Below are positions 24,739-30,016 of a DNA stretch of 64,000 nucleotides, in pieces; position 1 is the stretch's first letter, and every line of letters begins with the position of its first letter. Made by a program: the position numbers and the translations under genes. The notes beneath the pieces were generated by a model that was given only the letters and a program-made list of their open reading frames with translations, was not told the origin of the DNA and did no database searches. Location of the stretch: positions 3,224,001 to 3,288,000 of the forward strand of contig NZ_CP114013.1 in the NCBI RefSeq assembly GCF_028416635.1, in the 5' to 3' direction. Origin of the DNA: Baekduia alba. Its GTDB lineage: Bacteria; Actinomycetota; Thermoleophilia; Solirubrobacterales; Solirubrobacteraceae.

Positions 24739-27327
24739 TCAGGCGAGCAGGGACTCGATGTGCGCGCGGGCGGCTGCGAGCGCGTCGTCCAGCTTCTCCG
24801 GATCGCGTCCGCCGGCCTGGGCCATCGTGTCGCGGCCGCCTCCGCCGCCGCCCACGACCTGGGCGGCGACCTTGACGAGCTCGCCCGCCTTGACGCCGCG
24901 CTCGACCAGCGCCGGCGCGACCGAGGCGATCAGCGCGACCTTGCCGTCGGTCACCGCCCCGAGGACGATCGCCGCGTCGCCGATCGCATTCTTGACGCGG
25001 TCGGTCGCGTCGAGCAGCGCCTTGGCGTCGCCGACCTCGACGCGCGACGTGAGCACGCGCGCGCCGCCGACCTCCTCGGCCGCGTTGGCCAGCGCGCCGA
25101 CGTCGACCGCGCCGTTGGCGCCGCCGCTCGCGCCCGCCTTCGCCGCGGCCTTGAGCTGCTGCTGGAGGTCGGCGACCTTCGCCGGCACCTGCTCGGGCGA
25201 CGTGCGCAGCTCGCCCGCCGCCTCGCGGATCAGCGCGTCGTGCGAGCGCAGCAGCGTGACGGCCTCCGGCCCGGTGACCGCCTCGATGCGCCGCACGTTG
25301 GAGGCCGACGACCCTTCCGACACGACCTTGAAGACGCCGATCTCCGCCGTCGAGCGCACGTGCGTGCCGCCGCAGAGCTCGCGCGAGTAGTCGCCCGCGC
25401 CGATCTGCACCATCCGGACGACGTCGCCGTACTTCTCGCCGAACAGCGCCATGGCCCCCATCTCCTGGGCCTCCTTCAGCGTCGTCGTGATCGGGCGCAC
25501 CGGGTCGTTCTGCAGGACCCACTGGTTGACGCGGTCCTCGACGGCCTTCAGCTCATCGGGCGACAGGCGCTGGCCGTGGGTGAAGTCGAAGCGCAGCTTG
25601 TCCGGGCCGACGTAGGAGCCCGCTTGGCGGACGTGCGTCCCGAGCGCCTCGCGCAGGGCCGCGTGCAGCAGGTGCGTCGCGGTGTGGTTGGCCTGCGTCG
25701 CGGTGCGCGCCGGGCGGTCCACGCGCGCGACGACGGTGTCGCCGGCCTTCAGCGCGCCGTCGCCCTCCAGGACGACCGCCTGGTCCTCCCCTGCGCGCAG
25801 CACCTCGCTCACCGTCGCGTGCGCGCCGTCGACGGTCTCGACGACGCCCTGGTCGCTGACCTGGCCGCCGCCCTGCGCGTAGAACGGCGACGCCGCGAGC
25901 TTGACGAACGTCCGCCCGCCCTGCTCGAGGACGCCGGCGACCGTCGTGCGCTCCTCGAGGTGCTCGTACCCCGTGAAGTCCGTCGGCTCCTCCGACAGCT
26001 GGCGGATGACCTCCTGGCGCGCGCCGACGCGCTCCTGGGCGCCCGCACCGGCCGAGGACCGCAGCCGCTGCTCCTCCATCAGCGCGTCGAAGCCCGCGAT
26101 GTCGACGGGCACCTCGCGCTCGCCGGCGATCTCGGTCGTCAGGTCGATCGGGAAGCCGTAGGTGTCGTGGAGCTTGAACGCGTCCTCGCCGGAGACCGCG
26201 CCGCCGGCGAGCAGGTCGTCCAGCATCGACAGCCCGGTCTCCAGCGTGCGGCCGAAGCCCTGCTCCTCGGCGCGGACCCAGCGCAGGATCGTGTCGTGCT
26301 CGCGGGTCAGCTCCGGATAGGCGGCGCCCATCGTCGCGATGACGACGTCGACGTACTTGGGCAGGAACTCGCCCTCGAAGCCGAGGCGATGGCCCTGGGC
26401 GATGGCCCGGCGCATCAGGCGGCGCAGCACGTAGCCGCGGTCCTCGTTGGACGGGACGACGCCGTCGGCGATCAGGAACGTCATGCCGCGCGAGTGGTCG
26501 GCCAGGATGCGCAGCGCGCGCTCGTCGATCGGATTGGTCGCCAGCGAGCGGCCGAGCTCCATCAACGGGATGAACTGGTCGGTGTCGAAGATCGAGTCGA
26601 CGCCCTGCTGGATCAAGGCCATGCGGTTGAGGCCCATGCCCGTGTCGATGTTCTGGTTGGGCAGCGGCGTCAGCGTGCCGACCGGGTCCTGGTTGTACTG
26701 CATGAACACCAGGTTCCAGTACTCGAGGAAGCGCTCGTTGTCGCCGCCGGGCAGGTCGTCCTCGGTACCCCACTCCAGGCCACGGTCGTAGTACAGCTCC
26801 GAGCACGGGCCGCACGGCCCGGTCTCCCCCGCCTGCCAGAAGTTCTCCGACCGTGGGCACGGCACGATCCGCTCGCGCGGCACGCCGATCTTCAGCCACG
26901 CCTCCACGGCCTCCTCGTCGAGGCCGAGGCCGAGCTCCTCGTCGCCCTCGAAGACCGTGACCCAGATCTTCTCCGGGTCGAAGCCGAAGCCCTCGATCGA
27001 CAGCTCCCACGCGCGCTGCGCGGCGCCTTCCTTGAAGTAGTCGCCGATCGAGAAGTTGCCGAGCATCTCGAAGAACGTGAGGTGGCGCGTGGTCGTGCCG
27101 ACGACGTCGATGTCCGGCGTGCGGAAGCACTTCTGGCAACTGGTGAGCCGCGGGTGCGGTGGCGCCTCCAGACCCTGGAAGTAGGGCTTGAGCGGATGCA
27201 TGCCCGCCGTGGTCAGCAGCACCGAAGGGTCGTAGGACGCAGGGACCAGCGGAGCGCTCGCGAGGCGCTGGTGATCGCGCTGCTCGAAGAACGACAGGAA
27301 GGTCTCGCGGATCTCGTCGGACGTCAC
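24739..27327 (-). CDS. alaS: Alanyl-tRNA synthetase
   Basis: Charges tRNA(Ala) and edits mischarged Ser/Gly. The 862 residues contain the class II catalytic core (ETFLSFFEQRDHQRLASAPL, TAGMHPLKPYFQG), a tRNA recognition domain, and the editing domain with HTATHLLHAALREALG and the Cys/His zinc-type motif CGGTHV. The C-Ala domain ends in the Gly-rich segment GGGGGRD. Start: GTG 27327 overlaps the mnmA stop as GTGA; an alternative ATG at 27345 (MCDDRSV) would overlap mnmA by 22 nt. Neither has a strong Shine-Dalgarno, so initiation is likely by translational coupling. Confidence 0.97.
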   Translation of the reverse strand: MTSDEIRETFLSFFEQRDHQRLASAPLVPASYDPSVLLTTAGMHPLKPYFQGLEAPPHPRLTSCQKCFRTPDIDVVGTTTRHLTFFEMLGNFSIGDYFKEGAAQRAWELSIEGFGFDPEKIWVTVFEGDEELGLGLDEEAVEAWLKIGVPRERIVPCPRSENFWQAGETGPCGPCSELYYDRGLEWGTEDDLPGGDNERFLEYWNLVFMQYNQDPVGTLTPLPNQNIDTGMGLNRMALIQQGVDSIFDTDQFIPLMELGRSLATNPIDERALRILADHSRGMTFLIADGVVPSNEDRGYVLRRLMRRAIAQGHRLGFEGEFLPKYVDVVIATMGAAYPELTREHDTILRWVRAEEQGFGRTLETGLSMLDDLLAGGAVSGEDAFKLHDTYGFPIDLTTEIAGEREVPVDIAGFDALMEEQRLRSSAGAGAQERVGARQEVIRQLSEEPTDFTGYEHLEERTTVAGVLEQGGRTFVKLAASPFYAQGGGQVSDQGVVETVDGAHATVSEVLRAGEDQAVVLEGDGALKAGDTVVARVDRPARTATQANHTATHLLHAALREALGTHVRQAGSYVGPDKLRFDFTHGQRLSPDELKAVEDRVNQWVLQNDPVRPITTTLKEAQEMGAMALFGEKYGDVVRMVQIGAGDYSRELCGGTHVRSTAEIGVFKVVSEGSSASNVRRIEAVTGPEAVTLLRSHDALIREAAGELRTSPEQVPAKVADLQQQLKAAAKAGASGGANGAVDVGALANAAEEVGGARVLTSRVEVGDAKALLDATDRVKNAIGDAAIVLGAVTDGKVALIASVAPALVERGVKAGELVKVAAQVVGGGGGGRDTMAQAGGRDPEKLDDALAAARAHIESLLA

Positions 27328-28730
27328 GCTGCGATCGTCGCACATCCGATGACGACATCCCCCGCGAGGAGCACGGCCGTCTGGCCTGGCGCGGGGGCGG
27401 AGAACGGCTCGTCGAGCACGACCGCGCTGGGTTCGAGCCGGCACGGCACGATCCGGGCGTGGTAGCGCAGGCGGACGCCGTCGACCTGCGCGGCCTCGGC
27501 GTGCAGCCGGATCCCGCGCAACGCCACGCGGTCGACGTCGAGCGCGTCGCGCGGACCCAAGGTGATGGTGTTGGCCTTGGCGTCGGTCTCCAGCACGTAC
27601 AGCGGCTCGGGACGCTGGACCGGCAGCCCGCGGCGCTGGCCCACCGTGTAGTGGAAGTGGCCGCGGTGGCGGCCGAGCACGGCGCCGCCCGCGTCGAGCA
27701 CGTCGCCGGGCCGCTCGCGCAGCCCGCCGTGGCGCTCCAGGAAGCGCTCGCGACCGGTGCCCGCCAGGAAGCAGAGGTCCTGGGAGTCGGGCTTGGACGC
27801 CACCGGCAGCTCGTGCTCGCGCGCGAGCGCGCGGACCTCCGGCTTGGTCAGCTCGCCGAGCGGGAAGCGCAGGCGCGCCAGCGTGGCACGGCCGAGCGCG
27901 GCCAACATGTAGGTCTGGTCCTTGGCGTCGTCGGCCGCGGCGCGCAGGAGCCCGCCCGCGGTCTGGCGCGCGTAATGGCCGGTGGCCAGCGTCGCGGCGC
28001 CGACGCGGTCGGCGAAGGCGACCATCGCGTCGAGGCGGACGTGGCCGTTGCAGCGCACGCACGGGTTGGGCGTGAGCCCGTCGGCGTGCTCGGCCAGCCA
28101 CGGCTCGACGACGCCGGCGCGGAAGCCGGCGCGCAGGTCGAGCGTGAAGTGCGGCAGCCCCATCTGGTGGGCGATCGCGCGCGCCGAGCGCACCGCGGAC
28201 GCGCTGCAGCACGAGGCCTCGGCGTCGTTCTCCGGATCGCGCCACAGCTCGAGCGTCACCGCGACGACCTCGTCGTGGGTCTGGCCCAGCAGGACCGCGG
28301 CGACCGACGAGTCCACGCCGCCGGACATCGCGACGAGCGTGCGCCGCGCGTGCGGCGGCGCCGCGCCGGACTGCGCGACCGCCGCGCCGAGCGCCTGGTG
28401 CAGCGCGTCGGAGGCGAGGTCGGCGGCGTGCAGCTTGCCGACGCTCAGCCCGCCCAGCTCCGCCGCGATCGCCGCGCTGCCGACGCGCGCGGCGTCGAAG
28501 ATCGACGCGCCGCGCACCAGCTCGACGGCCGCGCTGCCGGCTGCCTGCGCCGCGCCGCAGCCCGACGCCTCGAAGCCCGCGTCGACGACCGTGTCCCCCG
28601 CGACCGCCAGCCGCACCGTGACGAGGTCGCCGCACGCCGCGCCGCCGGCGGCACCCGCGAACGCGCCCGCGGGCTCGTGGCCGCGGCCGACCGGATGCTC
28701 CAGGTGCTCGGCGAAGCGCTCGTCAGACAA
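27324..28730 (-). CDS. mnmA: NifU/IscU-like domain fused to tRNA 2-thiouridylase MnmA
   Basis: One frame encodes two parts. Residues ~1-120 resemble an IscU/NifU scaffold: FAEHLEHPVGRG, ACGDLVTVRL (Cys, Asp), EASGCGAAQAAGSA (second Cys), and AIAAELGGLSVGKLHAADLA. The third IscU cysteine (LHCSVLAEDA in the family) is replaced by Ala. From ~residue 130 follows complete MnmA, which thiolates U34 of Lys/Glu/Gln tRNAs: PP-loop SGGVDSSVA, catalytic Cys in NPCVRCNG, second Cys in SQDLCFLAG, and the C-terminal beta-barrel. Proposed start: TTG 28730, the only plausible start near the IscU N-terminus; no clear Shine-Dalgarno. A start inside the frame just before MnmA cannot be excluded, but the upstream homology argues for the long form. 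Overlaps alaS by 4 nt. Confidence 0.88.
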   Translation of the reverse strand: MSDERFAEHLEHPVGRGHEPAGAFAGAAGGAACGDLVTVRLAVAGDTVVDAGFEASGCGAAQAAGSAAVELVRGASIFDAARVGSAAIAAELGGLSVGKLHAADLASDALHQALGAAVAQSGAAPPHARRTLVAMSGGVDSSVAAVLLGQTHDEVVAVTLELWRDPENDAEASCCSASAVRSARAIAHQMGLPHFTLDLRAGFRAGVVEPWLAEHADGLTPNPCVRCNGHVRLDAMVAFADRVGAATLATGHYARQTAGGLLRAAADDAKDQTYMLAALGRATLARLRFPLGELTKPEVRALAREHELPVASKPDSQDLCFLAGTGRERFLERHGGLRERPGDVLDAGGAVLGRHRGHFHYTVGQRRGLPVQRPEPLYVLETDAKANTITLGPRDALDVDRVALRGIRLHAEAAQVDGVRLRYHARIVPCRLEPSAVVLDEPFSAPAPGQTAVLLAGDVVIGCATIAA

Positions 28731-28823
28731 CTCGGGGCCCGAGTCTAGGACCCGAACACCGTTCCCCAGACAGCAGGGCTGCGGGCCCGCACCGCCGCGA
28801 CCGACCAACGAAGCGACACCTCG

Positions 28824-30016
28824 ATGCTCCGGATCCGCGTCGCCCTCTTCCTCCTCCTCCCGCTCGCGCTGGTCGCGACCGGTTTCGCGATGGTGCTCAC
28901 CGTCGACCACCAGCGCGACGTCGCGGCGCACGCCGCCGACCGCACGGATGCCGCCCACCAGCTGATGCTGGCGATGGTCGACCAGGAGACCGGCCTGCGC
29001 GGCTACGTGCTGTCCGACCGCCAGGCGTTCCTCGAGCCGTTCTACACCGGTGACCGCGACGGGCGCAAGGCCGAGGTCGAGGTCCGCGCCGAGGCCGGCG
29101 GCGACCCGCGCACGCTCACGCTGATCGGCGCGTTCTCCGAGCTGAAGACCGCCTGGCAGATCCAGGCCCAGAACGAGATCGCCGATCGGCGCAACGGCGA
29201 CTGGCACCGCCACGACCTCGCCGGCGCGCTGCGGCGCAAGGCGCTGATGGACCGCCTGCGCCGGATCAGCGCGCACCTCAACCGCCGGCTGGACCAGCGC
29301 CGCAACGACGATCTCGACGACGCCGGGCGCCAGGCGTTCTTCGAGGTCGTCGGGCTGATCCTGCTGCTCGGCGTCGCAGCGGTGTCGCTGATCACGCGCG
29401 AGCGCCGCCAGCGCCGCCAGGCCTTCCAGCGCGAGCTCGCCTACCGCCAGTCCCAGCGCGAGTTCACCGACGTTATCCAGGTCGTGCGCTCCGAGCCCGA
29501 GGCCCACGCGCTCGTCAAGCGCCACCTCGAGCTCTCGGTCCCGGGCGCCCGCGCCACGGTGCTCAAGCGCAACAACTCCGACAACCGCCTGGAGCCGAGC
29601 ACCGAGCTGCCCGCCGGCTCGCCGCTGAACGAGCGGCTGCGCGACGCCGAGCCCGCGTCCTGGGCGACGTGGTCCTGGCACACGTCGGCGCGCTGCTCAC
29701 CGCCACGGTGCGCGACAGCGACCTCGTCGGCCGCATCGGCGGCGAGGAGTTCGTCGTCCTCGCGCCCGACACCGACGTCGCGGGCGCGCTCGTCCTCGCC
29801 GAGACCCTGCGCGCCGCGCTGGCGGCCGAGCGCATCCCGGACCTGGACCGCGACGTGACCGGCAGCCTCGGCGTCGCCGTCCTGGCCGTCCACGCACCCG
29901 ACGGCGCGTCGCTCCTGCGCCTCGCCGACCGCGCGCTGTACGCCGCCAAGGGCGGCGGACGCAACCGCGTCGAGGTCGCCGTGGTCGAGCCCGCGGCGAC
30001 GCTTCCGGCGCTCTAG
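28824..30016 (+). pseudogene. Broken CHASE3-GAF-GGDEF signalling protein
   Basis: Seen: ATG 28824 begins a membrane anchor (IRVALFLLLPLALVATGFAM) and a CHASE3 sensor (MVDQETGLRGYVLSDRQAFL). A second membrane helix, a short coiled coil and the start of a GAF domain (LVKRHLELSVPGARATVLK) follow. Near 29660 the frame breaks. The next frame (to 30016) holds only the second half of a GGDEF domain: RDSDLVGRIGGEEFVVLAP with RxxD five residues ahead, then SLGVAVLAV and ALYAAKGGGRNRV. The rest of GAF and the first half of GGDEF, including the metal-binding Asp, are missing. An internal deletion with frameshift explains this. The product should not make c-di-GMP. Confidence 0.85.

Follow-up and report, generated by a model that had tools for sequence, protein, structure and literature searches.

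How does a tRNA thiolase obtain its sulfur in a bacterium in whose genome neither an IscS-type desulfurase nor TusA was found, and what does a scaffold-like domain do at its N-terminus? These questions are raised by a gene in a 64,000-nucleotide stretch of the Baekduia alba genome (contig NZ_CP114013.1, positions 3,224,001 to 3,288,000), here called the window, whose own numbering is used throughout. The gene, nifU_N-mnmA (27324..28730, minus strand), encodes an IscU-like domain (the N-domain) in one frame with MnmA, the tRNA 2-thiouridine-34 synthase. The N-domain probably plugs MnmA straight into the cellular sulfur supply. A more specific reading, that this IscU-derived domain serves in cis as a desulfurase-docking and sulfur-acceptor domain feeding MnmA directly, is the one we prefer, with confidence a little short of even.

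An IscU-like domain is fused to MnmA

The fused gene encodes 468 amino acids, from a TTG start at 28730 to a TGA stop at 27326-27324. Residues 1-118 (28377..28730) make up the IscU-like domain, which was identified with Pfam, AlphaFold2 and VIA-align. Residues 119-128 (28347..28376) are a short linker that runs in the model from the last NifU_N helix to strand 1 of the PP-loop domain. Residues 129-468 (27327..28346) are MnmA, with the PP-loop motif SGGxDS present as SGGVDS. The NCBIfam equivalog NF001138 matched residues 131-466 at 329.9 bits (cut-off 284). Pfam NifU_N matched residues 5-115 at 76.4 bits (cut-off 22, E=2.9e-21). The NifU_N search had been set beforehand as a refuting test of the preliminary description of this DNA, which had proposed an IscU-like domain fused to MnmA; the coordinates given there were exact, and the Pfam, NCBIfam and fold matches agree with it. 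The N-domain scored below the cut-offs of the narrower NCBIfam equivalogs NifU_clost (74.8 bits, cut-off 187.9) and IscU (57.6 bits, cut-off 192.4), and below that of SufU TIGR01994 (38.6 bits, cut-off 92.5).

Structure prediction, one of the checks proposed earlier, pointed the same way. With eight relatives, AlphaFold2 modeled the N-domain confidently (mean pLDDT 93.5 alone, about 90 in the full chain). In VIA-align the model of the N-domain alone resembles the solved IscU chain 4eb5_C of A. fulgidus (Z 20.6, rmsd 1.7 A, 123 residues); the Z score against B. subtilis SufU was 14.5. Foldseek with the full-chain model ranked MnmA structures (2hma, 2det) at the top, followed by IscU chains (4eb5_C, E=2.4e-9).

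One explanation would place the true start just before the PP-loop and make the upstream frame a chance long open reading frame in high-GC DNA. It could draw on the frame being open for 790 codons and on the lack of a clear Shine-Dalgarno sequence 5' of the TTG start. However, the homologous start residue in relatives is ATG or GTG (Solirubrobacteraceae, Svornostia abyssi, Patulibacter medicamentivorans), the 118-amino-acid domain is conserved in them, and it has the Pfam match given above. Compared with the nearest relative, identity is 73% in the N-domain and 70% in MnmA, and dN is 0.25 for each. The N-domain evolves as slowly as the MnmA part, and the two are equally conserved. Homologous starts and equal dN refute a chance open reading frame at the sequence level, leaving this explanation with practically no probability. 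The distribution was surveyed in 159 genomes of class Thermoleophilia and 396 of phylum Actinomycetota, whose lineages carry the labels f1, f2 and so on. Because the fusion recurs throughout the class and in other Actinomycetota lineages, with an N-domain evolving as slowly as MnmA, it is genuine and cannot be put down to faulty annotation or assembly.

The MnmA part is of the CxxC-C type, with all three active-site cysteines present. C224 and C227 (28050..28061, minus strand) lie in the sequence TPNPCVRC at the positions of E. coli Asp99 and Cys102, and Cys320 (27771..27773, minus strand) lies at that of E. coli Cys199. All three are invariant in alignment A1, and the CxxC is present in every MnmA surveyed.

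Four metal ligands are retained and the third cysteine is lost

The ligands of IscU, in E. coli numbering, are Cys37, Asp39, Cys63, His105 and Cys106. Discussions of IscU usually treat the third cysteine as a cluster ligand; its counterpart in SufU-type sites binds Zn. The motifs listed in the preliminary description (Cys-Gly-Asp, Ser-Gly-Cys-Gly and GGL..KLH followed by Ala) are present as A-C33-G-D35, S-G-C58-G and GGL..K-L-H101-A102. Cys33 (28632..28634), Asp35 (28626..28628), Cys58 (28557..28559) and His101 (28428..28430), all on the minus strand, are equivalent to IscU Cys37, Asp39, Cys63 and His105, and Cys33 also to the acceptor Cys40-41 of SufU. Alignment with E. coli IscU places Ala102 (28425..28427, minus strand) at the position of Cys106. 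The N-domain thus has two of the three cluster cysteines of IscU (C33 and C58, with A102 as the third), and in place of the Zn ligands Cys/Asp/Cys/Cys of SufU it has Cys, Asp, Cys and then His101-Ala102.

Conservation was assessed in the same-type set, 43 domains from lineages f1-f5 and f23. Cys33, Asp35 and Cys58 are each found in 43/43, and the histidine in 41/41 in f1-f5 and 9/9 in f23. Identity reaches 95% or more in just nine columns, among them Cys33, Gly34, Asp35, Gly57 and Cys58. The loss of the third cysteine, recognized in the preliminary description, is fixed, as the position holds Ala, Gly or Val in these lineages and Cys in 0/43 domains. Judged by the alignment, one of the five IscU ligands is gone and the four remaining are under the tightest constraint of the domain.

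Computed geometries of IscU have Zn bound by Cys37, Asp39, Cys63 and His105, with Cys106 pointing away; when His105 is mutated, Zn is computed on the three cysteines and Asp39 (PMC4243993). The C/D/C/H set of the N-domain matches the full set of Zn ligands calculated for IscU when Cys106 takes no part. The sulfur acceptor in SufU is the first cysteine (PMC10216065), and Cys37 has been proposed as the first acceptor in E. coli IscU (PMC2854127). The missing ligand had been taken to suggest a sulfur shuttle or docking module and not a classic scaffold. The denial of a scaffold stands, since the full five-ligand IscU set occurs in no fused domain surveyed. The metal site, however, has not been dismantled, its four ligands being invariant, and the shuttle idea rests on the retention of Cys33, not on the loss of the third cysteine, because the first cysteine is the acceptor in SufU.

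SufS is the only desulfurase recognized in the genome

The B. alba genome is a single 5.86-Mb contig in which sulfur-transfer families were searched one by one. Among class-V aminotransferases SufS is the only true desulfurase by model score (500 bits, cut-off 475); its gene adjoins sufC and sufU. Neither of the next two class-V aminotransferases by score reaches any desulfurase cut-off in NCBIfam. No IscS-type desulfurase was found in the genome, the best match to an IscS query (E=6.9e-29) being a cross-hit to SufS. TusA was found neither in B. alba nor in any of the nine genomes of f1-f2, in the same order, listed in the phylum survey. These absences are in line with the earlier suggestion that the domain could stand in for IscS/TusA. 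B. alba SufS carries GIHPHDV...RAGHHC, including the HPHD histidine. In the SufS-SufU pair, the second histidine of this motif (His354/342) displaces the first SufU cysteine from Zn, leading to persulfide uptake (PMC10216065).

A separate sufU product in the genome keeps C/D/C/C. This SufU (L105:6427-6864, genome position about 1282430) scores 97.1 bits, just over the SufU cut-off of 92.5, and its second-to-third cysteine spacing is short and IscU-typical, 45 residues by count. At another locus of the class, L211 (G122, f5), iscS is followed closely by a tusA-like reading frame.

The fusion is widespread and its ligand site decays by lineage

The fusion is found in essentially every family of B. 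alba's order (f1-f4), elsewhere in the class in f5, f8, f9, f10 and f11, and outside the class in f23, f16, f55, f73 and f34. A survey of MnmA N-termini had been proposed for Thermoleophilia; the fusion does recur there but is not confined to it, extending to other Actinomycetota lineages. Lineages f6, f29 and f51 have iscS-iscU-mnmA operons with unfused genes, and in f29 and f51 only one stop codon interrupts the frame shared by iscU and mnmA. In f23, f10 and f11 the fused gene is immediately preceded by iscS. The N-domain appears to derive from the scaffold of iscS-iscU-mnmA operons. The MnmA tree requires six changes between the fused and separate states, with several deep branches unsupported, and may be compatible with one or with several fusion events.

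The ligand table separates fused from unfused domains. Unfused IscU neighbors in f6, f29 and f51 have C/D/C/H/C in 7/7 cases. The fused domains of f1-f5 and f23 have C/D/C/H and no third cysteine; for seven rows with gaps at His101/Ala102 in the table, the alignment and the sequences themselves give His and then Ala or Val. Those of f10, f11 and f55, 1/2 of f73 and 5/9 f8 rows show the reverse, C/D/C/not-H/C. In fused f9 only Cys37 is retained (8/8), while fused f16 domains have Cys63 and mostly Cys37, Asp39 being lost and Cys37 sometimes lost. The equivalent of Cys33 is present in all fused rows of f8, f9, f10, f11 and f55 and in most of f16, and is invariant in most fused lineages. In f7 and f34 the domain is recognizable with no ligand cysteine at all. 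The f7 form is a remnant of about 80 residues without the ligand loops, yet 63 columns of it still align with the IscU-domain profile (hhalign probability 96%, E=2.9e-9). MnmA is still CxxC-C in the lineages with a Cys-free domain. The pattern suggests that fused clades keep either the histidine or the third cysteine and then decay to one cysteine or none. The type of desulfurase was considered as the determinant of the retained ligand and rejected, as f23, with IscS adjoining, and f1-f4, with SufS only, both keep the histidine.

These ligand sets bear on whether the N-domain could assemble or receive an Fe-S cluster and, as an in-cis scaffold, load the [4Fe-4S] cluster of a CxxC-C MnmA. Such delivery is possible because B. 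alba MnmA is of the CxxC-C type, the kind shown with [4Fe-4S] in T. thermophilus (PMC8584467); four potential ligands remain, and the domain would derive from a scaffold encoded next to iscS. Yet the full ligand set seen in every unfused neighbor of f6, f29 and f51 is found in no fused domain surveyed, and the B. alba lineage has lost Cys106, a cluster ligand. The genome already has a SUF system for Fe-S assembly, and the cluster-type cysteines of MnmA persist where the domain has none. We consider cluster delivery improbable.

The same series could reflect a structural or regulatory passenger, acquired by loss of the stop codon between operon neighbors. It would take no part in sulfur flow and would instead serve protein stability, tRNA binding or metal/redox sensing. 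The in-frame iscU and mnmA of f29 and f51 would be its intermediate stage, the progressive ligand decay in several lineages would fit it, and at two f8 loci, L101 and L102, MnmA is found without the N-domain. In B. alba's order, however, the domain is under purifying selection equal to that on MnmA and its ligands are invariant, and a passenger seems quite improbable.

At L172:5355-5400 (G459, f23) the fused gene is split by an overlapping stop and start, TAATTG, with the fused-type ligand set kept. The gene may have been split again secondarily, or its two parts may be translated as a coupled pair.

A proposed desulfurase-docking and sulfur-acceptor domain

In the reading that we prefer, the N-domain would dock MnmA on a cysteine desulfurase, presumably SufS in B. 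alba and IscS where iscS adjoins the fused gene. Persulfide sulfur would be taken up on Cys33 and passed within the chain to the active-site cysteines of MnmA (C224, C227, C320), replacing the TusA/IscU step. The Cys33/Asp35/Cys58/His101 site may hold Zn(II) as in SufU, covering Cys33 until docking, when a SufS histidine, by analogy, would take the place of this cysteine on the metal. That the third cysteine is lost and the first retained argues against scaffolding and allows sulfur transfer. A fuller account, which we offer tentatively and with clearly less confidence, is that a degenerated Fe-S scaffold has become a metal-gated persulfide relay in a self-contained thiolase: the desulfurase docks, the metal frees Cys33 and sulfur passes within one polypeptide. 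After fusion the five-ligand site would have split into C/D/C/H or C/D/C/C and then, by lineage, into single-Cys and Cys-free forms.

Four observations weigh against the docking and acceptor reading. The profile scores put the N-domain nearer IscU/NifU than SufU (74.8 bits for NifU_clost, 38.6 for SufU), and it has no equivalent of the third SufU ligand. Genomes of f5 hold an iscS-tusA pair elsewhere besides the fused MnmA, so the N-domain is not strictly a TusA substitute. Finally, the domain has no ligand cysteine in f7 and f34, and in f16 it lacks Asp39 and sometimes Cys37; chemistry on the domain is therefore not required everywhere. A strict single-Cys sulfur carrier as the universal function is ruled out by the loss of Cys37 in f7, f34 and part of f16.

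In lineages with no cysteines docking or structure alone can suffice, and for this reason some weight was given to docking only, in which the N-domain tethers MnmA to the desulfurase, persulfide passes directly from SufS or IscS to the MnmA cysteines and the metal site only stabilizes the fold. The f7 remnant, which still matches the IscU-domain profile, and the f34 domain would fit it. Zn does stabilize IscU (PMC4243993), and the desulfurase YrvO supplies MnmA directly in B. subtilis (PMC11784392), as SufS possibly does in Plasmodium (PMC10219651). Tethering alone does not account for the ligands being the most conserved residues of the domain in f1-f5 and f23, nor for f9 keeping Cys37 in 8/8 domains though the rest of its metal site is lost. 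We judge docking only to be rather unlikely.

Neighboring genes and other observations

The next gene of the operon, alaS (24739..27327, minus strand), overlaps the mnmA stop with its start as GTGA, and is followed downstream by ruvX, mltG/yceG, aroE and gspE/pilB (T2SSE ATPase). A 15-bp palindrome, ACTCGGGGCCCGAGT (28730-28744), with arms of 7 around one base, sits right at the TTG start codon of nifU_N-mnmA and is possibly an operator or a terminator arm. The divergent neighbor on the plus strand (28824-30016) encodes a diguanylate cyclase. It looks broken by a frame-shifting deletion because the frame changes between its CHASE3 and GGDEF parts and the GGDEF domain lacks its first third.

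Two f9 loci (L210:2543-5980 and L212:93-3650) encode a molybdopterin oxidoreductase that continues in frame into an IscS-like cysteine desulfurase at the C-terminus; Molybdopterin and Molydop_binding domains were detected in these fusions. Similar open frames of 1150-1310 amino acids occur in G066, G012, G042, G112, G036 and G088. Formate dehydrogenase is sulfurated by IscS via FdhD, and the f9 protein seems to be a further case in which an enzyme is joined to its sulfur donor.

Comparison with known systems

The IscU/NifU-MnmA architecture is presumably contained in domain databases. No paper on a NifU/IscU-MnmA fusion was found in the open literature; a mention in Shigi 2020 or Zhou 2021 is possible. 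The N-domain would be an IscU-type variant of a thiolase-fused acceptor or docking domain, and for its wide distribution and decay series no report was found. The family bears on two open questions, the sulfur supply of MnmA without a Tus relay (PMC11784392) and the role of the cluster in CxxC-C MnmA (PMC8584467). It is a natural experiment in which the donor domain is separate, fused with either four-ligand site, with one cysteine or with none, or absent, and it makes testable which matters: docking, persulfide transfer or cluster supply. It also shows how a scaffold protein becomes part of the enzyme that it serves.

Among published systems the nearest precedent found was apicomplexan MnmA. 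That of Plasmodium falciparum has a putative N-terminal SufE-like domain, proposed to pass SufS sulfur to the C-terminal MnmA (PMC10219651). Both domains are fused N-terminally to MnmA and would be SUF-type sulfur acceptors, but the apicomplexan domain is SufE-like, plastid, eukaryotic and putative, whereas that of B. alba is IscU/NifU-like.

SufU of B. subtilis and M. tuberculosis (PMC10216065) shares with the N-domain the IscU fold and three of its Zn ligands (the first and second Cys and the Asp), and its partner SufS, with the docking histidine, is present in B. alba. The fused domain differs in having His and then Ala at the third cysteine, in being attached to MnmA and in scoring below the SufU cut-off; moreover a true SufU is encoded separately. 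With the IscU/NifU N-terminal scaffold (E. coli, A. fulgidus 4EB5) it shares the fold, the equivalents of Cys37, Asp39, Cys63 and His105 and, apparently, an operon origin. In contrast to that scaffold it has no third cluster cysteine, has LSVGK in place of LPPVK and is a covalent part of MnmA.

The [4Fe-4S]-dependent CxxC-C MnmA of T. thermophilus (PMC8584467) is likewise a PP-loop enzyme with three active-site cysteines, to which the B. alba enzyme adds the N-terminal domain, in a genome where IscS and TusA were not found. In the YrvO-MnmA pair of B. subtilis (PMC11784392, PMC10219651) MnmA is also supplied by a desulfurase without a Tus relay, but there the two are separate proteins, the desulfurase is dedicated and no IscU-like domain has been described, whereas in B. 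alba such a domain is part of MnmA itself.

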